Below are positions 9,651 through 24,631 of a stretch of 64,000 bases of DNA, piece after piece. The stretch's first letter is position 1; each line of letters starts with the position of its first letter. This DNA comes from Paraburkholderia largidicola. GTDB taxonomy: Bacteria; Pseudomonadota; Gammaproteobacteria; Burkholderiales; Burkholderiaceae. Position numbers and translations under genes: made by a program. The stretch lies in the NCBI RefSeq assembly GCF_013426895.1, contig NZ_AP023175.1:1674001-1738000 (forward strand), written 5' to 3'. The notes beneath the pieces were generated by a model. It ran no database searches and was not told the DNA's origin. It saw only the letters and a list, made by a program, of their open reading frames with translations.

Positions 9651-10706
9651 TTAACGATATGAGCCTGCGTACTTCTGCACGGGCGCGAGGTTGTCCTTCG
9701 TGACGAAGCTCGGCCCGGAACTCACCGTCGAGCCCGTATAAACCGGCTTCAGATCGTATTTGGCGAGCCGCGCCGCGACCTTTTTGTCCTCTCTCAATGC
9801 CGCGACGATGCGCGCGGAGTCGTTCGTCTTGTCGCGAATCGCAATCGCCATTGCCGCGACGGACAAATAGCCTTGCAGATATGGCTGCTGGTCGATGGCG
9901 AATGCGATCTGCCCCGCCTGAATCGACTTCAGGATGTCGGGCGAAAGATCGAACGTGGCAACGTAAATCTTCCCGCTCATGCCCGCGTCCTTCACGCCGC
10001 GCAGCACGCCCGTCGCCTGATCGGGACCGAGCGCGAGAATCGCTTGCGTCGTCGGGTGCGATCTCAGGTAGGCGGCGACCTTGCTTTCGATCACCGTCGG
10101 ATCTTCGCCGCTATCCATCGTCGACTTCTTGTAGTCGACGCCGAGCGCATCGGCGAAACCCTTGCAGCGGTCCCACAGCGCCTGAATGTCCGCGCCGTGA
10201 TTCACGCACAGAAACTCGTGGATACCCGCCGCCTTCGCGCGCTCGCCCGCTGCCTTGCCGGCATCGTATTCGGGCTGGCCGATGTGCATCAACGCGCCGA
10301 GCTTCATGCCCGATTCGGGCCCGCCGTTGATCGTGACAAGCGGAATGTGCTTCGCTTTCACGCCCGTCAGACCCTTCTGGATCATGTCGAAGTTCGGCAC
10401 CGTCGTGATCACGCCCGAGTAGTTGCGCGCCGCCGCCTGTTCGAGAATGCGCACCATGTCGCCCGTATCGCCCGAAGGCGGATTGCGGTAATCGACGGGC
10501 ACGTTGAAATCTTCGCTCGCGTCGCGCATGCCGTTCTTGACGGTGTTCCACCAGACGTTCGAATCCGATCCGTGACTGACCATCACGAAGCGCTCGTCGG
10601 CGGCGGCGCTGTTCGCGGCGAAGCCGGTGACCAGCGTCAGCGCTGCGAGCGCAGAGGCGATTCGTTTGACCGCGCGTTGGGTTGCGCGAAATGCGGGCTT
10701 GTCCAT
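9651..10706 (-). CDS. Periplasmic sugar-binding protein of ABC type (orphan)
   Basis: A 351-residue periplasmic binding protein of the ribose-binding (type 1) fold. An N-terminal signal peptide ends near 'AANSAAADERF'. The mature part starts 'FVMVSHGSDSNVWWNTVKNG' and includes 'AARNYSGVITTVPN', 'PLVTINGGPESG' and 'ILALGPDQATGVLRGVKDAG', all typical of sugar ABC systems. GGAGA precedes the ATG at 10706. No ABC permease or ATPase lies in the window, so this is an orphan unless its partners are elsewhere. The divergent LacI regulator suggests sugar-dependent control. Confidence 0.85.
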   Translation of the reverse strand: MDKPAFRATQRAVKRIASALAALTLVTGFAANSAAADERFVMVSHGSDSNVWWNTVKNGMRDASEDFNVPVDYRNPPSGDTGDMVRILEQAAARNYSGVITTVPNFDMIQKGLTGVKAKHIPLVTINGGPESGMKLGALMHIGQPEYDAGKAAGERAKAAGIHEFLCVNHGADIQALWDRCKGFADALGVDYKKSTMDSGEDPTVIESKVAAYLRSHPTTQAILALGPDQATGVLRGVKDAGMSGKIYVATFDLSPDILKSIQAGQIAFAIDQQPYLQGYLSVAAMAIAIRDKTNDSARIVAALREDKKVAARLAKYDLKPVYTGSTVSSGPSFVTKDNLAPVQKYAGSYR

Positions 10707-10855
10707 GATGGTTGTCTCCTGACATGGGATTGGCATGGCGGAATGCACTCTGCGGAGATGCGCGACGCCGGGCCACCGGATCTTGATCGCCGGGGCTTTA
10801 TCGCTAACGCCCGGTCGCTTCCGGTGGTTAGAATCTAGTTGATCGAATCTCTGCT

Positions 10856-10886
10856 CTCAAACGGTTTATTGAGGATATTTCCTCAA
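10856..10886. promoter_or_regulatory. Probable LacI operator with three half-sites
   Basis: CTCAA (10856-10860), TTGAG (10869-10873) and CTCAA (10882-10886) alternate in orientation. The second pair forms a perfect inverted repeat, TTGAGGA-TATT-TCCTCAA (10869-10886). It ends 14 bases before the start of the LacI gene, consistent with autorepression and control of the divergent binding-protein gene. Confidence 0.5.
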
Positions 10887-10900
10887 ACAGGAGGGACCGT

Positions 10901-11932
10901 ATGAACGTCAGACGCAAGCCGACCATGGAAGATGTCGCGAAGGCCTCGGGCGTCAGCTATTCGACTGTCGAGCGCGTGCTGAACGGGCGTGGCGGCGTGG
11001 CACGCGAGAAGGAATCGCGCGTGCTCGAATGGGCGCGCAAGCTCAAGATGGATCGCGCGCTCGACGAAGTGTCGGTGCGCTGGCTGCGCATCGCGATCCT
11101 CACGCAACAACCATCGTCGCCGTACTACGTTGCGCTACGGCAGGGGTTCGAGCTTGCGCAGAAGTCGTTCGAAACGCATCGCGTGGTGTGCCATCTGACG
11201 TTTTTCGACGACCTCGAACCGAAGTCGCTGGCGGCCGTCATCAATCGCGCCTCGCAGAAGGCGGACGCGATGATCGTCGTCGCGTACGAGCACAGCGTCG
11301 TCGTCGATGCGATCTCGCGCGTCGCGCGCAAGATTCCCGTCGTGACACTGGCGAGCGATCTTCCAGACACGGGGCGGCTCGCGTATGTCGGCATCGACAA
11401 TCGCTGTGCGGGACGAACCGCGGGTGAACTGATGGGCCGGTTTATCGGACGCGACGGCGGACAGGTCATCGTGATTGCGGGCTTGCGCACGTATCTCGGG
11501 CACGAAGAACGCGAAGCCGCGTTTCGCTCAGTCATGCGCCGCAAGTTTCCTGCGTGCGACGTGGTGGCGACTGTCGAAAGCCGTGAAGACGAAAAATCAA
11601 CTGAGCGCTTGACGCGCGATGCCTTCAAAAAGTACCCGGATTTGCGCGGCATTTACAACCTGTCAGTTGGCGATGAGGGCATTGCGCGCGCGCTCAAGGC
11701 ACTCAAGCGCGAGCATTCGACAGTATTGATCGGTCACGAACTGACTGAGATCAGCCGGGCGTTGCTGATAGACGGCGTGATGGATGCCGTGCTCGATCAG
11801 AGTCCCTTTGTCGAAGCAGTGCGGGCCGTCGAAGCGATATTGGGTCATTACAACAGGGGCACGCCTTCAGGTCTTCCGTTGCAAACGCCGATGTCGATCT
11901 ATCTGCAGGAGAACTTGCCGCCAGCATCGTGA
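10901..11932 (+). CDS. LacI-family transcriptional regulator
   Basis: A 343-residue LacI-type repressor. The N-terminal helix-turn-helix is 'TMEDVAKASGVSYSTVERVL' with the hinge 'NGRGGVAREKESRVLEWAR'. From about residue 60 a periplasmic-binding-like domain binds the effector; it contains 'RLAYVGIDNRCAGRTAGELM'. It is a paralogue of the LacI protein at 13385-14440, which carries nearly the same signature. AGGAGG precedes the start. It is divergent from the orphan binding protein. Confidence 0.9.
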   Translation: MNVRRKPTMEDVAKASGVSYSTVERVLNGRGGVAREKESRVLEWARKLKMDRALDEVSVRWLRIAILTQQPSSPYYVALRQGFELAQKSFETHRVVCHLTFFDDLEPKSLAAVINRASQKADAMIVVAYEHSVVVDAISRVARKIPVVTLASDLPDTGRLAYVGIDNRCAGRTAGELMGRFIGRDGGQVIVIAGLRTYLGHEEREAAFRSVMRRKFPACDVVATVESREDEKSTERLTRDAFKKYPDLRGIYNLSVGDEGIARALKALKREHSTVLIGHELTEISRALLIDGVMDAVLDQSPFVEAVRAVEAILGHYNRGTPSGLPLQTPMSIYLQENLPPAS

Positions 11933-11962: not shown

Positions 11963-12838
11963 TCAGGGCTTCTTCCGCGCCTGCGCTTCAATCAGTTGAA
12001 GCAACACCTTCACCGGGTCGCTCAGATGCTGCGGCGCGCGATGCACAAGGCCGATGTCGCGATGAAACGTGTGATGCCCGAGGTCGACGGCACGCACCTT
12101 CGCAGGCCAGCGCCGGTACGTCGCCGTTTGCGGCACGATCGCCACGCCGACGCCATTTTCCACCAGTCTGACGATCGCTTCGAGTTCGTCCAGTTCGCAC
12201 ACTTCGCGCACGGTGAAGTGCATCCGGCGCAGGAATCGGTCCACTTGCCGGCCGCCGAACGACGCGCGGTCGTAGCGAATGAACGGCTGATCCGCAAGGA
12301 GTTCGGCCCAGTCCTTGCCCTTCACACTACGCGGCACGATCAGCCTGAACGGCTCTTGTGCGAGTGCGGTCCAGCGCAGATCGCTCTGAAAAGAAAACGG
12401 CGGACGAATGATCGCGGCGATATCGATCTCACCGGCGTCGACGAGATTGACGAGTTCCATCGACACACCGGGAATCACACGCGTGGTGCAGCCCGGACAT
12501 TGCGCATGGAACCGCGCCAAGGCATCGGGCAACAACGAGCGCTGCACCGATGCAATCGCACCGATAGTCACGCGCACGATGGCCGCCGGATCGGCCGCTG
12601 ACGAACTGAGGTTGTTGTATAGCCGGACGACTTCCTGCGCCTGCACGAGTATCTGCTGACCCGTCGCATTCAAACGCGCCGTCCGCCCTTCGCGGTCGAA
12701 CAGTGCAAAGCCCATTTCCGCTTCGAGCCGCTGCATCTGCGCGCTGACGGCAGCCTGGGTCAGACCGATCCTGTTGCCGGCAGCAGCGAAGGTGCCTTCC
12801 TGGGCGACGGCGATCAGCGTTTTCAGCTCACGGATCAT
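11963..12838 (-). CDS. LysR-family transcriptional regulator
   Basis: A 291-residue LysR regulator. The N-terminal domain reads 'LKTLIAVAQEGTFAAAGNRI' then 'LTQAAVSAQMQRLEAEMG' and 'LFDREGRTARLN'. The C-terminal domain is of the substrate-binding fold, with 'PFIRYDRASFGGRQVDRFL' resembling CysB/CbbR-type proteins. It is divergent from the VOC gene across a short AT-rich gap (12839-12940) and probably regulates it and itself. Confidence 0.9.
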   Translation of the reverse strand: MIRELKTLIAVAQEGTFAAAGNRIGLTQAAVSAQMQRLEAEMGFALFDREGRTARLNATGQQILVQAQEVVRLYNNLSSSAADPAAIVRVTIGAIASVQRSLLPDALARFHAQCPGCTTRVIPGVSMELVNLVDAGEIDIAAIIRPPFSFQSDLRWTALAQEPFRLIVPRSVKGKDWAELLADQPFIRYDRASFGGRQVDRFLRRMHFTVREVCELDELEAIVRLVENGVGVAIVPQTATYRRWPAKVRAVDLGHHTFHRDIGLVHRAPQHLSDPVKVLLQLIEAQARKKP

Positions 12839-12940
12839 TGATAAATTCTGTTTGTGTTTGACGAAATTATATATTGATTCTATTTTTCAATTCCGCCGCG
12901 TAGTATGTGCGATCTGCGAGCGCCCCACATGGAGAAAACA
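12839..12940. promoter_or_regulatory. AT-rich divergent promoter region
   Basis: The gap between the LysR gene and the VOC gene is clearly AT-rich around 12839-12892, unlike the flanking genes. LysR-type sites (T-N11-A) are expected here, but no single site can be picked with confidence. Confidence 0.35.
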
Positions 12941-13366
12941 GTGAGCCTTTCCCCTTTTCATCTGGCCATTCCCGTCTACGATCTTCCCGCCGCGCGCGAC
13001 TTTTACGGACGCGTGTTCGGCCTCGAAGAAGGCCGCTCCAGCGCACAATGGGTGGACTTCAATTTCTTCGGCCATCAACTCGTGATTCACGAACATCCGA
13101 AGACCGCTTCGCAAGAGAGCGTGCACAGCAATCCCGTCGACGGCCATGACGTGCCCGTGCCGCATTTCGGCGTCGTGCTCGCATGGGATCAATGGGAAGC
13201 GCTTGCGGAACGGTTGAAATCGTTCGGTACGAAGTTCGTGATCGAGCCGTATATCCGCTTTCAGGGGCAGGTCGGCGAACAGGCGACGATGTTCCTGTTC
13301 GATCCGTGTGGCAACGCGCTGGAGTTCAAGGCGTTCAAGGATATCGGCCAGCTATTCGCGAAGTAA
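12941..13366 (+). CDS. VOC-family (glyoxalase/dioxygenase fold) protein
   Basis: A 141-residue vicinal-oxygen-chelate protein with two beta-alpha-beta-beta-beta modules. '[20 protein letters not shown]' opens the first module, and '[16 protein letters not shown]' closes the second with the usual metal-binding glutamate. The GTG at 12941 was chosen because GGAG lies 6 bases upstream. The ATG at 12929 overlaps that Shine-Dalgarno site. The reaction cannot be told from sequence; candidates include glyoxalase and dioxygenase. Expression is probably under the divergent LysR. Confidence 0.82.
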
Positions 13367-13384: not shown

Positions 13385-14440
13385 TCACGGCAGATTCTCG
13401 CGCAGCACGATGCTGAACTGCACAGGCTTCACGCCGTCCAGCGCGTCGCGCCCCTCACGCACGTTGCCGAAAATTTTCAGGCAGTTGCCGACCATCGCCT
13501 GCGGCGTCTGCGTGATGAGCGCGTCCATCGTTCCATCGATCAGCAACGCCCGCGTATCCGGCGTCAGGCCGTGTCCGACGAACAGTATCTTCTGTTCGGT
13601 CTTGGCTTCGACGATCGCACGCGCCACCCCATCCGAGCCGCCGCCGCTGTTGTAGATGCCCGCCAGATCGGGATGCTGCGCGATCAGGTTGCGCGTCTGC
13701 ACGTAATTGCGCTCGCTGTCGTCCTGCCCTTCGCGCAAGCCAATCACCTTCACCTGCGGAAACGTCGATTCGATCAGATGCAGAAAGCCGATCTCGCGTT
13801 CCTCATGCCCGCGATAGTTGAGACTGCCCGCCAGCATCGCAATCTTGCCTGCCGGTCGCGGCCCCATGAAGCGGCCCAGCAGCAGCGCCGCCGTGCGCCC
13901 CGCTGAACGGTTGTCGATGCCGACATAAGCGAGCCGGCGCGAATTCGACAGATCCGAGATCAGCGTAATGGCGGGCACGTTCTGTTCGGCAAGCGCATTC
14001 ACCGCATCGCGCACGACGGGATGTTCGAGCGCCATGAAGACCACGCCGTCCGCGCGCTGACCGTAGTGCAGCAGACGCGCGGCGAGTTCGTTCGGATTGA
14101 AGCTCTCCACGTAATGCACCCGGCAGCGCATCCCTTGCGCGGCCCACTGGTTGTGCGCGAACTCGATGTAATCGCCCAACATGCGCAAATAGCGGTTCGT
14201 GCCCGCCGGCACCAGAAACTCGATCTTCAGCGGCCGCGCCGGTTTCGCTTCGGGTGTGGGCGCATCGATCGCGTAGCCCGCCTGCGCGGCTGCCTGCATC
14301 ACTCGGCGCGCCGTCATCGGCCGCACACCGTCGCGGCCATTCAACACGCGATCGACTGTCGCCGTCGACACGCCCGCCGCAGCGGCGATGTCCGCGATCC
14401 GCGCGCGCGGCGGAAAAAGAGGAATAGGCGCGTCAGCCAT
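13385..14440 (-). CDS. LacI-family regulator of the TRAP/RuBisCO-like operon
   Basis: A 351-residue LacI-type regulator. The helix-turn-helix is 'RIADIAAAAGVSTATVDRVL', the hinge 'NGRDGVRPMTARRVMQAA'. The effector domain starts near residue 70 ('PLKIEFLVPAGTNRYLRMLG') and contains 'RLAYVGIDNRSAGRTAALLL'. It is divergent from the TRAP/VOC/RuBisCO-like/kinase operon; inverted repeats in the gap are candidate operators. It most likely represses that operon until a sugar acid or derived phosphate is present. Confidence 0.9.
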   Translation of the reverse strand: MADAPIPLFPPRARIADIAAAAGVSTATVDRVLNGRDGVRPMTARRVMQAAAQAGYAIDAPTPEAKPARPLKIEFLVPAGTNRYLRMLGDYIEFAHNQWAAQGMRCRVHYVESFNPNELAARLLHYGQRADGVVFMALEHPVVRDAVNALAEQNVPAITLISDLSNSRRLAYVGIDNRSAGRTAALLLGRFMGPRPAGKIAMLAGSLNYRGHEEREIGFLHLIESTFPQVKVIGLREGQDDSERNYVQTRNLIAQHPDLAGIYNSGGGSDGVARAIVEAKTEQKILFVGHGLTPDTRALLIDGTMDALITQTPQAMVGNCLKIFGNVREGRDALDGVKPVQFSIVLRENLP

Positions 14441-14461
14441 GCGGGTTCCTGAGGGCTAAGT

Positions 14462-14472
14462 CCATCAAAAAC
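14462..14472 (+). promoter_or_regulatory. Inverted-repeat operator arm 1
   Basis: CCATCAAAAAC is the exact reverse complement of GTTTTTGATGG at 14588-14598. Both lie in the gap between the LacI gene and the operon it faces. The spacing (about 115 bases between arms) would suit DNA looping by a tetrameric LacI protein; this is inference. Confidence 0.45.
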
Positions 14473-14587
14473 AATCAGGTTTGCGGTTTGACAGGGCGAG
14501 TGGTGGTCCCTAGTCTTGCAGCAACATCATGCAGATACGGCACAGCGTAGCGAAAAATCTTCGGCAGCGCGCGTGCGGGACTTGATG

Positions 14588-14598
14588 GTTTTTGATGG
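14588..14598 (-). promoter_or_regulatory. Inverted-repeat operator arm 2
   Basis: GTTTTTGATGG, the exact complement of the arm at 14462-14472. A further TTGATGG lies immediately upstream at 14582-14588, giving a direct repeat of the core. It lies 77 bases before the TRAP binding-protein start. Confidence 0.45.
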
Positions 14599-14674
14599 CG
14601 CATGATGCCACAGCGGCACACATCACACAAAACGAACAACCCTCATGCATGGGACAAAGGAAGGAGACATTCGA

Positions 14675-15697
14675 ATGACCAATCTCGTCAGGCGCTCGCT
14701 GCTTCGCGCCGCCGCGGCAGCCCCCGTCGCCGGCGCGCTCGGCTTTCCCGCCATCGTCCGTGCTGCTGCGCCGCAATACACATTCAAGTACGGCAACAAC
14801 CTGCCCCTCACGCATCCTCTCAACATCCGCGCGAAGGAAGCGGCGGATCAGGTGAAGGAGCAGTCGAAGGGGCGCATGGAAATCCGCATCTTCCCGAACA
14901 ATCAGTTGGGCGGCGATACCGACATGCTCGCGCAGGTGCGCAGCGGCGGCATCGAAATGTTCACGCCGTCGGCACTCGTCGTGTCGACGCTCGCGCCCGT
15001 CGCCGCGATCAACGCGATCGGCTTCGCGTTCAGCGACTACTCGCAGGTGTGGAGCGCGATGGACGGCAAGCTCGGCGCGTATGTGCGCGCTGCGATGTTG
15101 AAGGCCGGTCTCGAATCGTTCGACAAGATGTGGGACAACGGCTTTCGCGAGACCACGTCGAGCACACGCGCAATCGCGAACGCAGCGGACATGCACGGGC
15201 TGAAGATTCGCGTGCCCGTGAGCCCGTTGAGCATCGACATGTTCAAGGGTCTCGGCGCGGCGCCGACGAGCCTGCAGTTCAGCGAGGTCTATTCGTCGCT
15301 GCAGACGCATATCGTCGATGCGCAGGAAAACCCGCTGCCCATCGTGCAGGTCGCGAAGCTCTACGAAGTGCAAAAGTACTGCTCGCTGACGAATCACATC
15401 TGGGACGGCTTCTGGTTCGTGCTGAACCAGCGTGCGTGGCAGAAGCTGCCGAAGGACCTGCAAGGCATCGCGTCGGATGCGTTCAACCAGGCCGCGCTGC
15501 GCCAGCGCGACGACGTGCGCAAGCTCAACGACGCCGCCATCGCCGATCTGCAAACCAAAGGCCTGTCGATCAACCGCCCGTCGCCCGACACGTTCCGCTC
15601 GGCACTTCGGCAAGCGAACTTCTATGCCGACTGGAAAGGCCGCTTCGGCAACGAGGCGTGGTCGCTGCTGGAAGGCTACACGGGCAAGCTCGCGTGA
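14675..15697 (+). CDS. TRAP transporter solute-binding protein (DctP family)
   Basis: A 340-residue periplasmic receptor of a TRAP transporter. The N-terminus has a twin-arginine-like signal, 'RRSLLRAAAAAPVAGALGFP', ending near 'AIVRAAA'. The mature chain has 'YGNNLPLTHPLNIRAKEAAD', 'IFPNNQLGGDTDMLAQVRSG' and 'GLKIRVPVSP'. Arg179 in the last segment matches the family arginine that holds the carboxylate of the ligand, so an organic acid is expected. AAGGAGA precedes the ATG at 14675. First gene of the operon, followed by its permease. Confidence 0.93.
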   Translation: MTNLVRRSLLRAAAAAPVAGALGFPAIVRAAAPQYTFKYGNNLPLTHPLNIRAKEAADQVKEQSKGRMEIRIFPNNQLGGDTDMLAQVRSGGIEMFTPSALVVSTLAPVAAINAIGFAFSDYSQVWSAMDGKLGAYVRAAMLKAGLESFDKMWDNGFRETTSSTRAIANAADMHGLKIRVPVSPLSIDMFKGLGAAPTSLQFSEVYSSLQTHIVDAQENPLPIVQVAKLYEVQKYCSLTNHIWDGFWFVLNQRAWQKLPKDLQGIASDAFNQAALRQRDDVRKLNDAAIADLQTKGLSINRPSPDTFRSALRQANFYADWKGRFGNEAWSLLEGYTGKLA

Positions 15698-15750
15698 ATC
15701 GGCGCGGTGTGCCGCGCACGCCGCGCGCATCGCTCATTGGGGAGACCGAC

Positions 15751-17661
15751 ATGACGGATCAGGCACTGCCGCACGCAGCGCTCGCGGATGGGGCCGCCGC
15801 TGCGCAATTCGATGCCGCACTCGCCGCGAGCGGCCCGAGGCGCTGGCTGCGGCGCTTCGACCGCGCGCTCATTGCGCTCGTCGAAAGCGCGTGCGCGCTG
15901 CTGCTTGCCGTCGAAATCGTCGTGCTGTTCGTGGGTGTGGTGTGCCGCTATGCGCTGCATCAGCCGCTCGTCTGGTCGGATGAACTGGCGGGCATTCTGT
16001 TCTTGTGGCTGTCGATGCTCGGCGCCGTGCTCGCGTTACGGCGCGGCGAGCACATGCGGATGACAGCCTTCGTCAGCCGCCTGTCCCCGCAGCGGCGCGC
16101 GCTCGTCGATACGCTGGCTATCGTTCTCTCGATCGCACTGCTCGCGCTCGTGCTGTGGCCCGCGTATGACTTCGCCGCCGCCGAGACCGTGATCCTCACC
16201 CCCGCACTGCAGATCAGCGACGCCTGGCGCGCGTTCGCGCTGCCCGTCGGCGCGGCGTTAATGCTGCTCGTCGGCTTGATCCGCCTCGCGCAAGTGAGCC
16301 GCGTGCGCGACGTCGTCATGGCGCTGGTGTTCGTCGCCGTGGTCGCGGGCGTCATCTTGTGGGCAGCGCCTGTCTTGCCCGATCTCGGCAAGGCGAATCT
16401 GCTGATCTTCTTCGTCGGCGTCGTCGCGATCGGCATTTTCTCGGGCGTGCCGATCTGCTTTTCATTCGCGCTCGCGACCTTCGGCTATCTGAGCCTCACC
16501 ACCGATACACCGCTCGAAGTGATCGTCGGACGCATGGACGAGGGCATGTCGCATCTCGTGCTGCTCGCTGTGCCGCTCTTCGTATTCCTCGGCCTGATGA
16601 TCGAAATGACGGGCATGGCGCGCGCGATGATCCAGTTTCTCGCGAGCCTCGTCGGTCATGTGCGCGGCGGGCTGTCATATGTGCTGATCGGCACGATGTA
16701 TCTGGTGTCGGGTATCTCGGGTTCGAAGGTCGCCGACATGGCCGCCATCGCGCCCGTGCTGTTCCCCGAAATGAAACGGCGCGGCGCCGACGAAGGCGAC
16801 CTCGTCGCCCTGCTCTCGACGGCGGGCGCACAGACGGAAACCGTGCCGCCGAGCATCGTGCTCATCACGATCGGCTCCGTCACGGGCCTGTCGATCTCCG
16901 CGCTGTTCACGGCGGGCATGCTGCCCGCGCTGGTGCTCGCGCTGATGCTGTGTTTCGTCGTGTGGCTGCGCTATCGCAAGGAAGATCTGAGCCACGCGCA
17001 ACGCTTCAACCGGCGTGAAATCGGCCGCATGTTCGTCGTCGCGTTACCTGCGCTCGCGCTGCCGTTCGTGATTCGCGGCGCGGTAGTCGAAGGCGTCGCC
17101 ACGGCGACGGAAGTATCGACCATCGGCATCGCGTATGCGGTGCTGATCGGCCTGTTCGTCTACCGGCGCTTCGCGTGGTCCCGCCTGCCGCGCATGCTGA
17201 TCGATGCGGCGACGCTGTCGGGTGCGATCATCTTCATCATCGGCTGCGCGACGGCGATGGCCTGGGCGCTCACGCAATCGGGCTTCTCGCAGGACCTGGC
17301 CGAACTGATGACTGCCCTGCCGGGCGGAACGTGGGCGTTCCTCGCGCTGTCGATGGTCGTGTTCATCGTGCTCGGCAGCGTGCTCGAAGGCATTCCCGCG
17401 ATCGTGCTGTTCGGTCCACTGCTGTTTCCGATTGCGCGCGCCGCCGGCGTCAACGAAGTGCACTACGCCATCGTCGTGATTCTTTCGATGGGCGTGGGCC
17501 TGTTCTCGCCGCCGTTCGGCGTCGGCTACTACTCGGCGTGCGCGGTCAGCCGCATCAATCCCGATGCCGGCATGCGGCCCATCGTCGGCTATATGAGCGC
17601 ACTGGTGATCGGCCTGATTCTCGTCGCGTTCATTCCGTGGATATCGACCGGCTTTCTCTGA
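15751..17661 (+). CDS. TRAP transporter fused permease (DctQ-DctM)
   Basis: A 636-residue inner-membrane protein in which the small DctQ subunit (about residues 30-200; note 'YALHQPLVWSDELAGILFLW') is fused to the large DctM subunit (about 205-636). DctM motifs include 'FSGVPICFSFALATFGYL', 'VPLFVFLGLMIEMTGMARAM', 'SGSKVADMAAIAPVLFPEMK' and 'GLFSPPFGVGYYSACAV'. It imports the acid captured by the upstream receptor using the sodium gradient. GGGGAGA precedes the ATG at 15751. It lies 53 bases after the receptor gene. Confidence 0.93.
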   Translation: MTDQALPHAALADGAAAAQFDAALAASGPRRWLRRFDRALIALVESACALLLAVEIVVLFVGVVCRYALHQPLVWSDELAGILFLWLSMLGAVLALRRGEHMRMTAFVSRLSPQRRALVDTLAIVLSIALLALVLWPAYDFAAAETVILTPALQISDAWRAFALPVGAALMLLVGLIRLAQVSRVRDVVMALVFVAVVAGVILWAAPVLPDLGKANLLIFFVGVVAIGIFSGVPICFSFALATFGYLSLTTDTPLEVIVGRMDEGMSHLVLLAVPLFVFLGLMIEMTGMARAMIQFLASLVGHVRGGLSYVLIGTMYLVSGISGSKVADMAAIAPVLFPEMKRRGADEGDLVALLSTAGAQTETVPPSIVLITIGSVTGLSISALFTAGMLPALVLALMLCFVVWLRYRKEDLSHAQRFNRREIGRMFVVALPALALPFVIRGAVVEGVATATEVSTIGIAYAVLIGLFVYRRFAWSRLPRMLIDAATLSGAIIFIIGCATAMAWALTQSGFSQDLAELMTALPGGTWAFLALSMVVFIVLGSVLEGIPAIVLFGPLLFPIARAAGVNEVHYAIVVILSMGVGLFSPPFGVGYYSACAVSRINPDAGMRPIVGYMSALVIGLILVAFIPWISTGFL

Positions 17662-17731
17662 GCGCGCTTCCGTTTTATCCATCGTTACACCGTTTCATCA
17701 CGATCCCTTCTCTGGTATTGGGAGTGTCTTC

Positions 17732-18271
17732 ATGAGTCGTTTTTTCGGCGAAATCCGCCAGGCCGGTTATGTCGTGCGCGACATCGAGGCGGCAATGGAC
17801 CACTGGAGCCGCGTGCTCGGCGTCGGCCCGTGGTTCTATAACGAACGCGTGCCTATCGAGGACTATCGCTATCGCGGCGAACACTACGACGTGCATAACT
17901 CGGTGGCGCTCGCGAATTCGGGCGACTTGCAGGTCGAACTGATCCAGACACGCAACGACGCGCCTTCGATGTACCGCGACTTTCTCGCGGCCGGTCACAC
18001 TGGCTTGCAGCACAACGCCTACTGGACGACTTCGTTCGATGCCGATCTCGAACGTCTGCTTCAGCAAGGCTTTAAGGTGGCGATGAGCGGCAACGTCGGC
18101 AAGAACGGGCGCTTCGTGTACTTCGACACGGAGCAGCATCCGGGGACGGTGATCGAACTGTCGGAAGTGGCGGGGCCGAAGGGCAAGCTGTTCGACATGA
18201 TCCGTGCCGCGTCGCTGAACTGGGACGGCCGCGATGCCGTGCGCCCGTTTCCCGATCTGACGACGCTATGA
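17732..18271 (+). CDS. VOC-family enzyme in the RuBisCO-like operon
   Basis: A 179-residue vicinal-oxygen-chelate protein of the glyoxalase/methylmalonyl-CoA-epimerase kind. Metal-ligand positions can be read as Gln10 (EIRQAGYVV), Glu69 (LQVELIQ), His94 (GLQHNAYW) and Glu142 (TVIELSEV). That set suits an isomerase or epimerase using a divalent metal to stabilise an enediolate. GGGAG precedes the ATG. Its stop overlaps the start of the RuBisCO-like gene by 4 bases, so the two are translationally coupled. It may supply the isomerisation step otherwise missing from this pathway; that is inference. Confidence 0.8.
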   Translation: MSRFFGEIRQAGYVVRDIEAAMDHWSRVLGVGPWFYNERVPIEDYRYRGEHYDVHNSVALANSGDLQVELIQTRNDAPSMYRDFLAAGHTGLQHNAYWTTSFDADLERLLQQGFKVAMSGNVGKNGRFVYFDTEQHPGTVIELSEVAGPKGKLFDMIRAASLNWDGRDAVRPFPDLTTL

Positions 18272-19554
18272 GCGCGCCATCCTCTCGCGACGACAGCGTC
18301 GAAGCCGATTATCTGATCGAGACACCGCTCGACCTCGAACGGGTCGCCGACACGATAGCGGGCGAACAATCGAGCGGCACCTTCGTGCGCGTTGCCAATG
18401 AAAGCGACGCGTTGCGCGCGCGCAGCCGCGCAAGCGTGCTGCGCATCGAGGAGCTGGAGCCAGTGCCGCATGCGTCGCTGCCGAGCGCATGGCTCACAAG
18501 GCAACGCGTGAACGGGCCGTTCAGGCGCGCGCGCGTCACGCTGTCGTTTCCGGTCGCGAACATCGGCGCCAATCTGCCGACGCTCGCCGCGACGCTCGCC
18601 GGCAATCTGTACGATCTCGGCGAAGTGACGGGCATGCGTCTGCAGTCCGTGCGTGTGCCGCGTGCGTATCGCGAGCGCTTCGATCTTCCCGAGCACGGCG
18701 TCGCGGGCACGCGGCGTCTGACGGGCGTTGTCGAAGGGCCGATGGTCGGCACGATCATCAAGCCGAATGTGGGGCTGTCCGCGCAGGAGACCGCGCAACT
18801 CGTCAGAACGCTGTGCGAGGCGGGCATCGATTTCATCAAGGACGACGAGGTCTGCGCGAACCCGGAGCACGCGCCGATCGCAGAGCGCGTGCCCGCCGTG
18901 ATGCGCGAAGTGCGCGCGTTTCGCGAGCGCACGGGCAAGCGCGTGATGATCGCATTCAACATCACCGACGACATGGACGCGATGCGGCGTCACGCCGAAC
19001 TCGTCGAACGCGAAGAAGGCGACTGCGTGATGGCGAGCATCAACTGGTGCGGTTTCTCCGCGATCCAGGCGCTGCGCCGCGCGACGCCGCTCGCGCTGCA
19101 CGCGCATCGCAACGGCTTCGGCATGATGTCGCGCGACGCTTCGCTCGGCATCGGCTTTCAGGCTTATCAGACGCTATGGCGACTCGCGGGCGTCGATCAT
19201 ATGCACGTGCATGGACTCGCGGGCAAGTTCGCGCAAAGCGACACGGAAGTGACCGAATCCGCTCGCGACTGCGCCACGCCGCTCGCCGACGGACTCGACG
19301 ACCGCGTGCTGCCCGCGTTCTCGTCCGGACAATGGGCGGGCACGGTCCCCGCCACCTTCGATGCGATCGGCACGAGCGATCTGCTCTTCATGTCAGGCGG
19401 CGGCGTGCTCGCGCATCCGGACGGTCCGGCGGCGGGCGTGCGCAGCGTGCGGCAGGCGTGGGACGCCGCGCAATCGCGCACTCCGTTGCACGACTATGCC
19501 GCGCACGCGCCGGAACTGCGCGCCGCGCTCGCGTTCTTCGGACCGCGGACATGA
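18268..19554 (+). CDS. RuBisCO-like protein (form IV, large-subunit family)
   Basis: A 428-residue member of the RuBisCO large-subunit family. Aligned by motif to spinach numbering: Lys165 (K175, 'GTIIKPNVGLS'), Lys191-Asp193-Glu194 (K201 carbamate and Mg ligands, 'GIDFIKDDEV'), His280-Arg281 (H294-R295), His313 (H327), Lys320 (loop-6 K334) and GGG 377-379. Lys177 is replaced by Asn167 and Thr173 by Ile, and H298 by Phe, so true CO2-fixing RuBisCO activity is unlikely. The Mg/carbamate centre is intact, so it should act on an enolisable sugar phosphate. Known relatives next to DUF1537 kinases act on 3-oxo-isoapionate 4-phosphate. Overlaps both neighbours by 4 bases. Confidence 0.92.
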   Translation: MSAPSSRDDSVEADYLIETPLDLERVADTIAGEQSSGTFVRVANESDALRARSRASVLRIEELEPVPHASLPSAWLTRQRVNGPFRRARVTLSFPVANIGANLPTLAATLAGNLYDLGEVTGMRLQSVRVPRAYRERFDLPEHGVAGTRRLTGVVEGPMVGTIIKPNVGLSAQETAQLVRTLCEAGIDFIKDDEVCANPEHAPIAERVPAVMREVRAFRERTGKRVMIAFNITDDMDAMRRHAELVEREEGDCVMASINWCGFSAIQALRRATPLALHAHRNGFGMMSRDASLGIGFQAYQTLWRLAGVDHMHVHGLAGKFAQSDTEVTESARDCATPLADGLDDRVLPAFSSGQWAGTVPATFDAIGTSDLLFMSGGGVLAHPDGPAAGVRSVRQAWDAAQSRTPLHDYAAHAPELRAALAFFGPRT

Positions 19555-20858
19555 GCGCATCGTACGGTTTCTACGGCGACGATTTTACGGGCGCAACCGA
19601 CACGCTCGCGCATCTCGCCCGTGCCGGCCGCAAGTCACTGCTGTTTCTCGCGCCGCCCAGTCAGGCGCGGCTCGCCAGTGTCGGCCCGCTCGACGCGATC
19701 GGCATTGCGGGCGCCGCGCGCGCGATGCCGCCCGCCGCGATGGCCGACGAGCTGGCGCGGGTCGGCGCCTGCTTCGCCGCGCTCGGCGTGCGCGTGATGC
19801 ACTACAAGGTGTGCTCGACGTTCGACAGCGCGCCGGACGTCGGCAACATCGCGACTGCCGTCGCGACGCTGCGCCGCTACGTCGACAATCCGTTCGTTGC
19901 CATTGTCGGCGGCCAGCCTGGGCTGCTGCGCTACTGCGCGTTCGGGCAACTGTTCGCGGCATCGGGCGGCGATACGCGCGCCGTTCATCGCATCGACCGA
20001 CATCCGACGATGAGCCGTCATCCCGTCACGCCGATGCACGAAGCCGATTTGCGGCTGCATCTCGAAGCTCAGGGCATGCGCGATGTGGCATCGGTGGATT
20101 GGCGCGCGTACGCAATGCCGTTCGACGAACTCGAAGCGATGGTCGATGCGAAGGTCGCGTTGGGTTCGTCCGCTATCGTTTTCGACGTGCTGCGCGACGA
20201 TGATCTGCTGACGCTTGGACGCCTGATCTCGGCGCGTTCGCAGCGTGCGCCGCTGCTGGCCGTAGGCGCGAGCAGCGTCGCGCAGGCATGGTGCGCTGCC
20301 GATGGCGCGTCGGCTGGATGCCGGGAACGTGAAGCGCCGCCGCTCGGCCGCGCGCAAGGGCCCGTATTCGCGCTCGCGGGCAGCCTGTCGCCCGTCACGG
20401 CGGCGCAGATCGAAGCCACCCGCTCGTACTGGAAGATCGAACTCGATCCGCTCGCGTGCGACGGCGATACGCTGCGTTTCAAAGCCGCGCCCATCGTCGA
20501 CATGCTGCGCGACGGACGCAATGTGCTCGCGTTCACGCGCCGCCCGCACGCATCGGCGCGTGACGCGCAGCAGGTGGACGCAAGCCGCGAGCAGACTGCG
20601 CATGCGTGCGCGGCGCTGCTGCGCGACGTGGTGCGCGCGGCGAGGCCACGACGCATCGGCATTGCGGGCGGCGACACATCGAGCCATGCGGTCCAGGCAC
20701 TCGATGCGTGGGGTCTGTCCTATCGCGCGCCGCTGACGGCGGGCGTCACCGTCTGCCGCCTGCATGCCGACGAGCCCTGGCTCGACGGCACCGACATCAT
20801 GTTCAAAGGCGGGCAGATGGGCGACGTGGATGTCCTCGAACGGCTGATCGAAGGCTGA
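19551..20858 (+). CDS. DUF1537 four-carbon acid sugar kinase family protein
   Basis: A 435-residue ATP-dependent sugar-acid kinase of the DUF1537 family. The N-terminal domain begins 'YGFYGDDFTGATDTLAHLAR' (GDDFTGATD at residues 9-17). The C-terminal nucleotide domain has 'GGDTSSHAVQALDAWGL' from residue 373 and 'MFKGGQMGDVDVL' near 417-429. Family members phosphorylate tetronates, and OiaK phosphorylates 3-oxo-isoapionate. Placed directly after a RuBisCO-like gene with a 4-base overlap, it probably makes the phosphate substrate for that protein. It is the last gene of the operon. Confidence 0.9.
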   Translation: MSASYGFYGDDFTGATDTLAHLARAGRKSLLFLAPPSQARLASVGPLDAIGIAGAARAMPPAAMADELARVGACFAALGVRVMHYKVCSTFDSAPDVGNIATAVATLRRYVDNPFVAIVGGQPGLLRYCAFGQLFAASGGDTRAVHRIDRHPTMSRHPVTPMHEADLRLHLEAQGMRDVASVDWRAYAMPFDELEAMVDAKVALGSSAIVFDVLRDDDLLTLGRLISARSQRAPLLAVGASSVAQAWCAADGASAGCREREAPPLGRAQGPVFALAGSLSPVTAAQIEATRSYWKIELDPLACDGDTLRFKAAPIVDMLRDGRNVLAFTRRPHASARDAQQVDASREQTAHACAALLRDVVRAARPRRIGIAGGDTSSHAVQALDAWGLSYRAPLTAGVTVCRLHADEPWLDGTDIMFKGGQMGDVDVLERLIEG

Positions 20859-20874: not shown

Positions 20875-23800
20875 TCAGCCCTCCAGCTTCGACATCACCG
20901 ACGTCGCCGGATCGTACTGGTAGCCCTTTTGCGCGAGTTGCTGGGTCATCGTCGCGCCGATCAGCTTCTTCTGCGCTTCCCTGAACACCAGTTCATGATC
21001 GGGCTTGAGACGCTCCAGTTCGAATGACAGCCTGCGCAAGAGCGCGACTTCGCCGGTGCTGCGCGCGTCGATGAAGAGGATTTTTTCGTTCGCCTGGTCG
21101 AGCCGCTGCTTGATGTCCTTCGCGTACGTCACCCATTGCTCGGCGTTCGCGCGAAGCTCGTTGTAGGCCTTCGTGTGAGTCTTCGCCTGAGCCGCGATCT
21201 GGCGTTGCAAGGACGCGAGTTCTTCCGCGACATCGGCTCCGCCCGGCAGTTCGCCGCCTTGCGCACCCTGTGTCGATGCCTGTTCGCGCGGGCGCTCGGC
21301 CAGGCTTTGCGCCAGTTCGGCTGCGCGCTGTTCCGCGGCATCGGCCCGCTCTTTCGCGGCGAACGCGTCTTGCGTCGCGCGCGCCAGTTCGGCGCTGGCC
21401 GCCGTCTGCGACTCGCTCATCGCGCTGATCTGCGCGCGGGCTTCGTCCAGTTCGCGCGTGACGCGCTGCAGTTCGTTGAGTTGCGTCGACGCGCTGTCGC
21501 TTTTCGCTGCGGCCGCCTCGCGCTCGGATGAAAGGCTCTGCTCTGCTTGCGCTGCCTGACGTTCGGCTGCGTCCGCTCTTTCCTTCGCCGCCGATGCGTC
21601 CTGTGCGAGCTTTGCCAGTTCTGCGCTCGCGGATGTGTGCGCGTCGGTGAGCGTGTCGATCTGCTTGCGGGCTTCGGCGAGTTCTTGCGTCACGCGCTGC
21701 AGTTCGTCGAGTTGCGACGATGCTTCGCTGTTGCGCGCGACGGCGGCTTCCCGTTCCGCTGCGAGGCTCTGTTCCAGTTGTGCTGCACGTTGCCCGGCTG
21801 AGTCCGCTCGTTCTTTTGCGGCGGATACTTCTTGCGTGAGCCGCGACAGTTCGGCGCTTGCGACGGACTGGGCTTCCGTCAGCGCGGCTGCCTGTTTGCG
21901 GGCTTCATCGCGTTCGGCTGCGAGCGTTTGTTCGGCTGCTTCCGCGCGGTGCTTCGCCGCGGATGCGTCTTGCGTCACCTGCGCCAGTTCTGCGGCTGCC
22001 GCCGTTTGCGTCTCGGTCAGCGCGTTGATCTGATTACGCGCTTCTTCGAGTTCGCGCGTAACGCGTTGCAGCTCGTTCGATTGAGCCGACGCTTCGGCGC
22101 TTCGCGCTGTCGCTGCCTCGCGTTCCGCATCGAGATCCCGTCCCAACTGGGCTGACAGTTGCGCGGCTGCATCGGCGCGGCGCTTTTCGGCGGATGCATC
22201 TTGCGTCATCTGCGCCAGTTCGGCGGCGGCTGCCGTTTGCGCCTCGGTCAGCGCGTTGATCCGATTGCGGGCCTCTTCGAGTTCGCGCGTGACGCGTTGC
22301 AACTCGTCGAACTGAGCGGACGCTTCGCTGTTGCGCGCCACGGCTGCTTCGCGCGCGACGGCAAGACTCTCGTCCAGCTGGACGGCGCGCTGTTCGGCGG
22401 CTTCGGCCCGCTGCTTCGTGGATGCGGCTTCCTGCCGGACGTTCGCCAGTTCGGCGCTTGCCGCCGTCTGCGCCTCGGTGAGCGCGTGGATCTGTGTTCG
22501 CGCGCCTTCGAGTTCATCCGTGACGCGCTGCAATTCGCTGGTCCGCGCCGCCGATGCCTCTCGCTCGCTCGCGAGGTTCTGCTCCAGCTCCGTTGCGCGT
22601 CGTTCGGCGGCTTCGGCCCTTTCCTTCGCGGCCGTCGAGTCTTGCGTCAACGCGTCGATCCGTGAACGGGCTTCGTCGAGTTCGCGCGTGACGCGCTGCC
22701 GTTCGTCGCTTTGCGCCGCCGTGGCCTCGCGCTCGGATGCGAGGCTTTGCTCCAGTTCCGCTACTCGCTGCCCGGCCGCGTCGGCCCGTTGTTTTGCCGA
22801 CGATGCGTCTTCCGTGACCCGCGCCAGTTCGGCGCTTGCGGCCGTCTGCGCCTCGGTCAGCGCATTGATCTGCGCGCGAGCTTCGTCCAGTTCGGTCCTG
22901 ACACGCTGAAGTTCATCGCTGTGCGCCGCCGTTGTCTCGCGCTCTACCGTCAGGCTCTGCTCGAGTTGCGACACGCGCTGCTCGGCCGCATCGGCCCTTT
23001 GCTTCGCGGTGGACGCGTCCTGCGAGACCCGCGCCAGTTCGGCACTCGCGGCCGTCTGCGCCTCGGTCAGCGTATCGGCACGCGTGCGTGCTTCTTCCAG
23101 TTCGCGTGTGACGCGCTGCAGTTCGTCGCGCTGCGCCGCCGTGGCCTCGCGTTCCACCGTCAGGCTCTGGTCCAGCTGGGACGCGCGTTGTTCCGCTGCG
23201 TCGGCACGTTCGGTCGCGGCAGAGACGTCCTGCGTCATGCGCGCCAGTTCGGCTGCCGCCAGCGTGTGCGCCTCGGTCAGCGCGCCGATCTGCGCTCGGG
23301 ATTCGTTCAGTTCGTGGTTGACGCGCTCAAGTGCGTTGCGCTGCTCGGACAGGTCGGCGGCATGTTCCAGCGCGGCGTCGCGTTCCGCGGCGAGTGCATT
23401 GCGGGTCTCGTTCAGGTCGGCCTCGACCGATGCGAGGCGCGCGGTGCTCTCGTTCGCCTGCGCCGCCGCTGCATCGGCGCGCGACACCGCTGCGGCCGCT
23501 TCCTGGGACCAGCGCTCGGCTTCTTCCGACTTCGCCTGGCAAGCCTCGTCCAGTGTCGCGATCTGCCGACGCGCGTCATCGCGCTCGCGGCCAAGCCGCG
23601 CGATCTCGTCGTTTTTGCCCGAAACCGTCGCGGCGAGCCATTCATTTGCCCGGTGCTGATCTTCGAGCGTGCTCTGGATCGCCGTGAGCCTGGCCTCGCC
23701 CGCCGATGCGCGCTCGCTCAGGTTCTGGGCGCTGGCCTCGGCGGCTTCCGCGCGCGCGGTTACTGTTTCGAAGTCGGCGCGAACCTGCGCGGCGGATTCC

Positions 23801-24243
23801 TGCAACGCGTGGAGGTCGTGGCGCAACCTGTCCAGCCGCTCGCGCCCCGTCGCGGCCTCTTCCCCCGTCTCCTGATACGCGGCAAGCGCCTCGTCACGCT
23901 CCCTGCGCACGACATCGAGTTGCTGGCTCGCCGCATCCAGGCCTTCGCTGAGCAACCGCCCGGCGTCGTCCTGTGAAGCGGTCCAGATGCGGCGTGCGGC
24001 TTCCATCAAGGTTTCCGCCAGTTCGCCCGGCAGCGCCTTCTGCGCTTGCGTCTCCGGTGCCGGCGGCTGCGGCTCGCGCGCCTCGCGCCAGCGTTGCAGC
24101 GCGGCGGCGACCGCGACGATCGAACCGCTGCGAACTTCCGCCCAGATCGTGACGGGGGAAACCAGACGGCCTTCTTCGGTCATGCGGTCTGCAACGGCTG
24201 CGACCTGCTCATCAATCATGGTGGTGTCGGTGTCGGTGGACAT
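20875..24243 (-). CDS. Giant KfrA-like DNA-binding coiled-coil protein
   Basis: A 1122-residue protein. The N-terminal 60 residues, with 'VAAVADRMTEEGRLVSPVTI' and 'SIVAVAAALQRWREAR', resemble the KfrA_N helix-turn-helix of plasmid proteins. Residues about 65-980 are an almost unbroken coiled coil, with about ten tandem repeats from residue 305. The last 140 residues are different: 'LASLQRQIAAQAKTHTKAYN' then 'LLRRLSFELERLKPDHELVF'. Plasmid KfrA proteins are about 300-400 residues, so this is a roughly threefold expansion. The ATG at 24243 has GAGG upstream. Possible roles are replicon organisation or partition, or a filament-like scaffold; none is proven. Confidence 0.8.
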   Translation of the reverse strand: MSTDTDTTMIDEQVAAVADRMTEEGRLVSPVTIWAEVRSGSIVAVAAALQRWREAREPQPPAPETQAQKALPGELAETLMEAARRIWTASQDDAGRLLSEGLDAASQQLDVVRRERDEALAAYQETGEEAATGRERLDRLRHDLHALQESAAQVRADFETVTARAEAAEASAQNLSERASAGEARLTAIQSTLEDQHRANEWLAATVSGKNDEIARLGRERDDARRQIATLDEACQAKSEEAERWSQEAAAAVSRADAAAAQANESTARLASVEADLNETRNALAAERDAALEHAADLSEQRNALERVNHELNESRAQIGALTEAHTLAAAELARMTQDVSAATERADAAEQRASQLDQSLTVEREATAAQRDELQRVTRELEEARTRADTLTEAQTAASAELARVSQDASTAKQRADAAEQRVSQLEQSLTVERETTAAHSDELQRVRTELDEARAQINALTEAQTAASAELARVTEDASSAKQRADAAGQRVAELEQSLASEREATAAQSDERQRVTRELDEARSRIDALTQDSTAAKERAEAAERRATELEQNLASEREASAARTSELQRVTDELEGARTQIHALTEAQTAASAELANVRQEAASTKQRAEAAEQRAVQLDESLAVAREAAVARNSEASAQFDELQRVTRELEEARNRINALTEAQTAAAAELAQMTQDASAEKRRADAAAQLSAQLGRDLDAEREAATARSAEASAQSNELQRVTRELEEARNQINALTETQTAAAAELAQVTQDASAAKHRAEAAEQTLAAERDEARKQAAALTEAQSVASAELSRLTQEVSAAKERADSAGQRAAQLEQSLAAEREAAVARNSEASSQLDELQRVTQELAEARKQIDTLTDAHTSASAELAKLAQDASAAKERADAAERQAAQAEQSLSSEREAAAAKSDSASTQLNELQRVTRELDEARAQISAMSESQTAASAELARATQDAFAAKERADAAEQRAAELAQSLAERPREQASTQGAQGGELPGGADVAEELASLQRQIAAQAKTHTKAYNELRANAEQWVTYAKDIKQRLDQANEKILFIDARSTGEVALLRRLSFELERLKPDHELVFREAQKKLIGATMTQQLAQKGYQYDPATSVMSKLEG
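21295..23331 (-). repeat. Tandem coiled-coil repeats of 70/77/56 residues inside the KfrA-like gene
   Basis: The repeat begins LQRVTRELEEAR, continues ALTEAQTAASAELA, then QDAS.AKQRADAAEQR and EQSLA.ERE. Units at residues 305, 375, 445, 515, 571, 648, 725, 781, 848 and 925 have lengths 70, 70, 70, 56, 77, 77, 56, 67, 77 and a partial 59. Apart from the 67-residue unit and the partial last one, all lengths are multiples of seven, so the heptad register is kept when units gain or lose segments. Confidence 0.85.
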
Positions 24244-24631
24244 AGGCGCCTCGAGAATCAACTGGCCAGGCGAAAGACAAAATTTTCGATACGTTACTAC
24301 GATCGGCGGCATCCGCAACGTAAGAAACGTGCCAATGCGCATCCAGCAAGCATTTGAAGGGCGGTGCAGGCGTCCGTAACGCTACGCCCTGATTCTGACA
24401 GGCGGCATCGACGGGATGGGCGATGGCTTTGGGCCAACGGTTGTCAGAACCCGCGCAACGGGCGTTCGACCCGGTTGCAGGACGTATGCCCACGCGCCAT
24501 CGCCGTCGGCAGGCGGGACTCGCGCGGGAAATTTGATCGCGTGCAAGATTCTCTTCCCTTATGCGACAATACGAATAATTCTCATTTAGAAGCTTTATTT
24601 TTGCTTACTGGACTCGTCCGGAAGACCGCGC
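24244..24631. other. Intergenic region between KfrA-like gene and FecI-type sigma gene
   Basis: A 388-base non-coding stretch separating two divergent transcripts. The KfrA-proximal half shows no recognisable element. The end near the sigma gene becomes AT-rich (24560-24605) and holds a Fur-box-like sequence at 24569-24587. Confidence 0.5.
24569..24587 (+). promoter_or_regulatory. Fur-box-like site upstream of the FecI-type sigma gene
   Basis: ATACGAATAATTCTCATTT resembles natural Fur sites of the AATAATTCTCATTT type found before iron-starvation sigma genes. It lies 44 bases before the sigma start, in an AT-rich patch. Iron-dependent repression of the sigma/FecR pair is inferred. Confidence 0.55.

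Follow-up and report, generated by a model that had tools for sequence, protein, structure and literature searches.

What does an operon do that joins a TRAP transporter to a VOC/glyoxalase-fold enzyme, a RuBisCO-like protein (RLP) and a DUF1537 kinase, and which compound does it consume? The question is raised by a locus of Paraburkholderia largidicola (host genome 9.47 Mb), in a stretch of 64,000 nt (NZ_AP023175.1, 1,674,001–1,738,000; hereafter the window) where the gene order is LacI, DctP, fused DctQM, VOC, RLP and DUF1537 kinase. A sequence-only reading of the window had proposed a variant sugar-acid route in which the VOC protein replaces the usual oxidoisomerase; its gene set and coordinates, both 4-base overlaps (VOC/RLP at 18268–18271, RLP/kinase at 19551–19554), DctP Arg179 and the VOC metal quartet were confirmed by sequence, Pfam, NCBIfam and alignments. 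We find that the operon is a conserved, self-contained cassette present in many soil and plant-associated bacteria. Taken as a whole, and with somewhat less than even confidence, we read it as a cassette for a C-branched sugar acid, with a VOC ketol isomerase, a kinase and an RLP that would act as a transcarboxylase/hydrolase.

A search for VOC homologues in one genome per species, across 84,980 species, confirmed 349 stretches; the best 80 of them are the VOC loci used here. The RLP gene directly follows VOC in all 80 (gap ≤206 bases). The kinase is present in 77 and LacI likewise in 77, the exceptions being three contig ends and three short contigs, respectively; DctP was matched in 74 of the 80 loci, and an ApnO-like gene in none. 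Conversely, an RLP of at least 67% identity is present in 24 of 299 genomes from the host's own family, with VOC adjoining it in 24/24. VOC also lies beside the RLP in 7/7 cases from another family (119 genomes; three of the seven genomes had also given VOC loci), and in a phylum-wide set of 398 genomes it accompanies 7/7 VOC-clade RLPs plus one exchange RLP, of the type described below. VOC is thus constant in relatives; its absence from most of them had been named as what would make its role incidental. The same order is found on annotated plasmids of Azospirillum, Roseomonas, Neorhizobium, Alloyangia, Paroceanicella, Paracoccus and Sulfitobacter, with DctQ and DctM as separate genes in the last four, and in some loci another TRAP type or an SBP_bac_3 ABC system takes the place of the transporter, whereas the three enzyme genes VOC, RLP and kinase are kept. 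Recurring as it does across many genera of Pseudomonadota, the gene order is not a product of chance.

Among the closest known schemes is a D-apionate route that uses ApnO, OiaK and the RLP OiaT, reportedly described in Xanthobacter autotrophicus by Carter and colleagues in 2018. Its relation to the cassette is brought out by five Bradyrhizobium genomes (L192, L262–L265; L numbers are our own handles), which keep LacI, DctP, DctQM, VOC (76–78% identical) and the 16-bp motif described below, and in which the RLP (52–54%) and kinase (35–37%) belong to the ApnO branch. One of these exchanged RLPs was placed in our tree, as sister to an ApnO-linked RLP (100/99), and the kinases of all five genomes cluster with the one encoded at the same locus as that ApnO-linked RLP (100/100). 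Each exchange genome has one RLP match at 1e-100, and none of the five has an ApnO-like gene at 1e-20 with the presumed X. autotrophicus ApnO as query; the ordinary cassette occurs in other Bradyrhizobium members (L270, L271). It follows from the exchange that VOC stands where ApnO stands in the D-apionate route, and that what it produces should suit the ApnO-branch kinase and RLP, probably 3-oxo-isoapionate or else a homologue or near analogue of it. The earlier proposal that VOC takes the place of the oxidoisomerase is therefore well supported, by the constancy of VOC, the lack of an ApnO-like gene and the RLP–kinase exchange. The X. autotrophicus route and the cassette would share a DUF1537 kinase and, after it, an RLP in which all examined RuBisCO-type residues are kept, and the phosphorylated 3-oxo acid is probably the same or homologous; the window differs in having VOC for ApnO, other RLP and kinase clades, and LacI plus TRAP.

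Were ApnO and ApnL simply encoded elsewhere and VOC incidental, this would be an ordinary D-apionate pathway, consistent with the homology of RLP and kinase and with the ApnO-like gene found in 5 of 43 VOC-cassette genomes (same query and cut-off). The gene is missing from the other 38, among them the five exchange genomes and the host's own, in which ApnL and sugar or apiose dehydrogenases were looked for in the operon and its neighbourhood only. Moreover, four of the five ApnO-positive genomes hold a second RLP, 47–49% identical to that of the window, which shares a contig with the ApnO-like gene and lies no more than ∼1.4 kb from it, and VOC is linked in every VOC-clade case examined. Contradicted by the absence of an ApnO-like gene, the ordinary pathway is rejected as scarcely credible.

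Which reaction would the RLP catalyze? OiaC, named in the sequence-only reading as an RLP of 3-oxo-isoapionate processing, is not known to be an RLP, and that naming looks wrong. We take OiaX to be a decarboxylase and OiaT a transcarboxylase/hydrolase. Two RLPs with these activities on 3-oxo-isoapionate-4-phosphate are described in one paper (PMC6302742). Our tree comprised 79 RLPs, with L107 and L108 representing the genus of the presumed X. autotrophicus OiaT (L260), itself not a row; four long branches drew a program warning (L162, L182, L011 and, inside the VOC group, L172). In this tree the 33 VOC-linked RLPs group together (81/55; recovered in 78% of bootstrap trees), the seven OiaX rows form a separate clade (100/100), and ApnO-linked and SDR-linked RLPs fall elsewhere than either, so that the window RLP belongs neither to the OiaX clade nor with the RLPs linked to ApnO. 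Orthology to OiaX is ruled out by this position and by a score of 424.5 against the 700 bits of NCBIfam OiaX (NF042437; a Rhizobium OiaX scores 760.2). Orthology to OiaT is ruled out by 45% identity to L260 and by the separate VOC group; L260, from what we take to be X. autotrophicus Py2, adjoins OiaK and a gene for a PGDH_C protein that is presumably ApnO.

E60, N123, H294, R295, H327, K334, K175, K201, D203 and E204 (in what we take to be spinach RuBisCO numbering) are kept in 33/33 VOC-clade rows and in the presumed X. autotrophicus OiaT, giving the window's clade the RuBisCO residues for carboxylation and hydrolysis that mark an OiaT-type enzyme. The OiaX branch of Rhizobium (3-oxo-isoapionate-4-phosphate decarboxylase) has an RLP and kinase homologous to the window's but differs in its D, G and Q at E60, N123 and H327 (7/7 rows). 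Of the two outcomes allowed earlier for the RLP step, C–C cleavage or decarboxylation, the plain decarboxylase is not favored, because the residues changed in OiaX are kept in the window RLP. The window RLP also matches PDB 3NWR ('A rubisco-like protein', presumably from Burkholderia fungorum) with 749 bits over 422 residues; we know of no function assigned to 3NWR or to the VOC-linked clade. For this large clade there is now a closely linked set of genes and a prediction of reaction type, and the natural exchange of parts indicates a likely intermediate. The host also encodes a likely genuine RuBisCO large subunit (L002; contig C3, 1434250–1435461; motifs read by eye).

Among the kinases, 26 VOC-linked members form one group (100/99). 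The window kinase falls below the cut-off of the OiaK model NF042436 (271.7 versus 700 bits), which the presumed X. autotrophicus kinase beside L260 passes (794.3), and it also matches the 3-oxo-tetronate kinase model (151.2 of 350 bits). The latter match would suit a linear C4–C5 2-oxo sugar acid, with VOC acting as OtnI (2-oxo to 3-oxo), the kinase as OtnK and the RLP as a decarboxylase, and an isomerase–kinase–decarboxylase logic is known for DUF1537 pathways. We consider such a substrate quite unlikely, since the OiaK model scores higher, the presumed-OiaT residues are kept rather than the OiaX ones, and the exchange is with an ApnO-branch pair whose presumed substrate is branched. Zhang and colleagues (2016) reportedly described the four-carbon acid-sugar pathways OtnK/OtnC/OtnI and DtnK/PdxA, and are said to have noted gene clusters in which TRAP and DUF1537 genes accompany a member of the RuBisCO superfamily; the TRAP plus DUF1537 kinase logic is common to the window, which has an RLP for the aldolase-type or PdxA decarboxylase and VOC for OtnI. 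No pathway uniting DUF1537, an RLP and VOC/glyoxalase appeared among the papers listed in searches of the openly accessible literature.

The preferred route would begin with a C-branched sugar acid in which a carbonyl is already present, in the simplest case a 3-C-carboxy-aldose, R-C(OH)(COO-)-CHOH-CHO, resembling apiuronate or L-aceric acid, which are branched sugar acids that either occur in pectic rhamnogalacturonan-II or are chemically akin to its sugars. After import by TRAP, VOC would act as a metal enzyme with a glyoxalase I-type quartet and move the carbonyl by one carbon without redox chemistry, giving R-C(OH)(COO-)-CO-CH2OH, which for R = CH2OH would be 3-oxo-isoapionate. The DUF1537 kinase would phosphorylate the CH2OH of this product, and the RLP, with its RuBisCO-type residues, would shift the carboxylate and hydrolyze the C–C bond to 3-phosphoglycerate and R-COO-, that is, glycolate for R = CH2OH or lactate for R = CHOH-CH3 (L-aceric acid). 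The most specific form of this proposal, a new VOC class (3-C-carboxy-aldose ketol isomerase) joined to a RuBisCO-like C–C hydrolase so that three enzymes degrade L-aceric acid or apiuronate, we hold to be doubtful. If the proposed route is true, it would add a redox-free entry to RuBisCO-like catabolism, allow the substrate to be sought with a short list of compounds, and cast doubt on the label '3-oxo-isoapionate-4-phosphate transcarboxylase/hydrolase' for a 69% homologue in Achromobacter kerstersii.

Regulation bears on whether a further enzyme belongs to the route. The LacI–DctP gap carries a 16-bp motif, CCATCAAAAACMATCA, found with ≤3 mismatches in 86 of 87 distinct LacI–DctP gaps, the same gaps from which it was derived (69 at ≤2, 49 at ≤1; L090 is the single gap that lacks it), and in 0/1589 random control windows of the same loci. 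At ≤2 mismatches, it occurs in 5/5 exchange loci and 8/9 re-examined VOC loci, and in 0/39 ApnO, SDR, GH127, OiaX or 4OAN loci. The two copies in the window's gap are the only ones in the host genome at ≤1 mismatch, so that the regulon probably extends no further than this operon, and no co-regulated partner is seen. This matters for an alternative that starts from VOC standing at the place of ApnO, and in which VOC, a ketol-acid isomerase free of redox chemistry, would shift a hydroxymethyl or carboxylate group of 2-oxo-apionate made elsewhere, as the isomerase half of ApnO would. ApnO-like proteins do combine a PGDH_C domain with a weak match to the acetohydroxyacid-isomeroreductase N-domain. 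Such an enzyme would need a source of 2-oxo-apionate, the window operon has no dehydrogenase, no second motif site lies elsewhere in the genome, and we know of no VOC enzyme that performs an alkyl shift; we judge it very unlikely.

The four VOC residues Q10, E69, H94 and E142 are invariant in 43/43 rows and correspond to a glyoxalase I-type metal site, the Q-E-H-E quartet being, as we take it, the metal ligands of human glyoxalase I; glyoxalase I and methylmalonyl-CoA epimerase share the VOC fold with the window enzyme, which scores below the cut-off of the methylmalonyl-CoA epimerase model TIGR03081 (22.6 versus 114.95 bits).

Several observations weigh against the ketol-isomerase route. The closest VOC fold is that of 3GM5, a putative methylmalonyl-CoA epimerase, which aligns with residues 6–147 of the 179 of the window VOC (∼30 C-terminal residues lie beyond) and has the same Q-E-H-E residues at the aligned positions, so that the quartet alone cannot tell isomerase from epimerase. 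Support for the VOC-linked RLP clade is just 81/55. In the exchanged RLPs, OiaT-like S and W replace the N and Y/F of the VOC clade, so that the RLP pocket points no single way. SDR genes, found between LacI and DctP in two Ancylobacter loci and one Neorhizobium locus, would be superfluous for a redox-free route. Apiuronate is not known to us as an abundant natural sugar, and the substrate, VOC reaction and products proposed here are inferred from sequence. As to the GH127-type glycosidases that accompany other RLP–kinase pairs (see below), the two that were tested match other GH127/146 structures better than 5MQO, which we take to be BT1003, and the single protein scanned with the NCBIfam model for aceric acid hydrolase scores far below its cut-off (87.4 versus 950 bits).

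The likeness to 3GM5 would be explained if VOC were an epimerase or racemase of the methylmalonyl-CoA epimerase type; TRAP would then import a wrongly configured 3-oxo sugar acid, and VOC would invert the carbon beside the ketone ahead of kinase and RLP. We think this unlikely. 3GM5 is itself only a putative epimerase. The Streptomyces epimerase has H and Q in place of Q10 and E69, and the position matching its E43, to which we ascribe a functional role, is E in just 25/43 VOC rows (hand-made, weak alignment). Moreover, C2 of a 3-oxo-isoapionate-like acid is quaternary, so nothing beside the ketone could be epimerized unless C4 were chiral.

The transporter is of the TRAP type, with DctQ and DctM domains and a DctP whose Arg179 (numbered from start 14675) is invariant in 31/31 rows. 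An AlphaFold model of DctP was poor (pLDDT 66.8) and served for the structure match alone. The closest solved solute-binding protein is 4OAN. Its sequence is 100% identical to the product of RPB_2686, presumably from R. palustris HaA2, and its density is reportedly modeled as 2-acetolactate. That compound appears among TRAP ligands in a review (PMC5812351). The 16 kb read around the 4OAN gene (L301, L302) holds DctQM and no VOC, RLP or kinase, and close homologues of the 4OAN protein occur in 202/391 genomes of its family (1e-110). Since 4OAN is a paralogue of the cassette protein, its ligand was dropped as a key to the substrate and is a mere hint.

Table 1. Features of the cassette in the window (window coordinates)
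Feature	Position	Strand	Remarks
LacI-family regulator (LacI HTH + Peripla_BP_4)	13385–14440	-	Divergent from operon; Pfam PF00356 + PF13407
16-bp motif CCATCAAAAACAATCA, copy 1, putative LacI operator	14462–14477	+	Conserved in LacI–DctP gaps
Sigma-70-like promoter TTGACA-17 bp-TAGTCT, predicted	14488–14516	+	Read by eye
16-bp motif, copy 2, inverted, 0 mismatches	14583–14598	-	
TRAP solute-binding protein DctP	14675–15697 (start 14645 also possible)	+	Pfam PF03480; best PDB match 4OAN
Fused TRAP permease DctQM	15751–17661	+	PF04290 + PF06808 within one open reading frame
VOC/glyoxalase-fold enzyme, metal quartet Q10, E69, H94, E142, proposed ketol isomerase	17732–18271	+	PF13669
RLP of VOC-linked clade, proposed transcarboxylase/hydrolase	18268–19554	+	PF02788 + PF00016; 3NWR close
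DUF1537 sugar-acid kinase	19551–20858	+	PF07005 + PF17042; OiaK-related, below OiaK cut-off

Just upstream of the cassette, a second small VOC gene (12905–13366) is divergent from a LysR gene (11963–12838); no match to it was reported in the cassette loci of relatives, and it is probably unrelated to the cassette. Farther upstream (9651–11932), a sugar-binding protein gene adjoins another LacI gene, with a sub-threshold NCBIfam match to a rhizopine solute-binding protein (223.6 versus 420 bits). Downstream (20875–24342) lies a gene for a repetitive coiled-coil protein of 1155 aa, the N-terminus of which we take, by eye, to be KfrA-like.

RLP–kinase pairs also occur in other settings. Some accompany ApnO-like genes (e.g. 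L127–L131, L260). Others lie with SDRs and a TRAP system related to the window's (DctP ∼49–54% identical where matched; L132, L193, L194, L201, L202, L209, L210, L267–L269, L280), and these SDR-type clusters might, speculatively, serve reduced branched acids such as 2-carboxyarabinitol. In L197, L199, L277, L308 and L309 a GH127-type glycosidase gene immediately precedes RLP and kinase, in most cases with genes for a beta-galactosidase, fucosidase or SGNH esterase nearby; among 249 genomes of one family, it is beside the RLP–kinase pair in 5/5 genomes with a hit. Two of the five GH127-linked RLPs are in the tree, on another branch than the window's, and the other three are 77–79% identical to one of them. 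These loci suggest a sugar acid from a pectin-like glycan. They had hinted at a pectin side-chain sugar because BT1003, of the GH127-type family, is an aceric acid hydrolase according to two papers (PMC10850190, PMC5698469). Given the weaker match to 5MQO than to other structures and the low hydrolase score, the GH127 neighbors were dropped as evidence for aceric acid. Genes of the Asp/Glu-racemase family are found near the pair in three GH127-type loci (L197:13469–14140, L199:15540–16199, L309:6136–6792) and in a pectin locus on a Bacteroidota plasmid (L273:16664–17323), and their products are perhaps another redox-free entry enzyme. A haloarchaeal plasmid (L011) carries RLP, DUF1537 kinase and ApnO-like genes, a combination that suggests D-apionate use in Halalkalicoccus.

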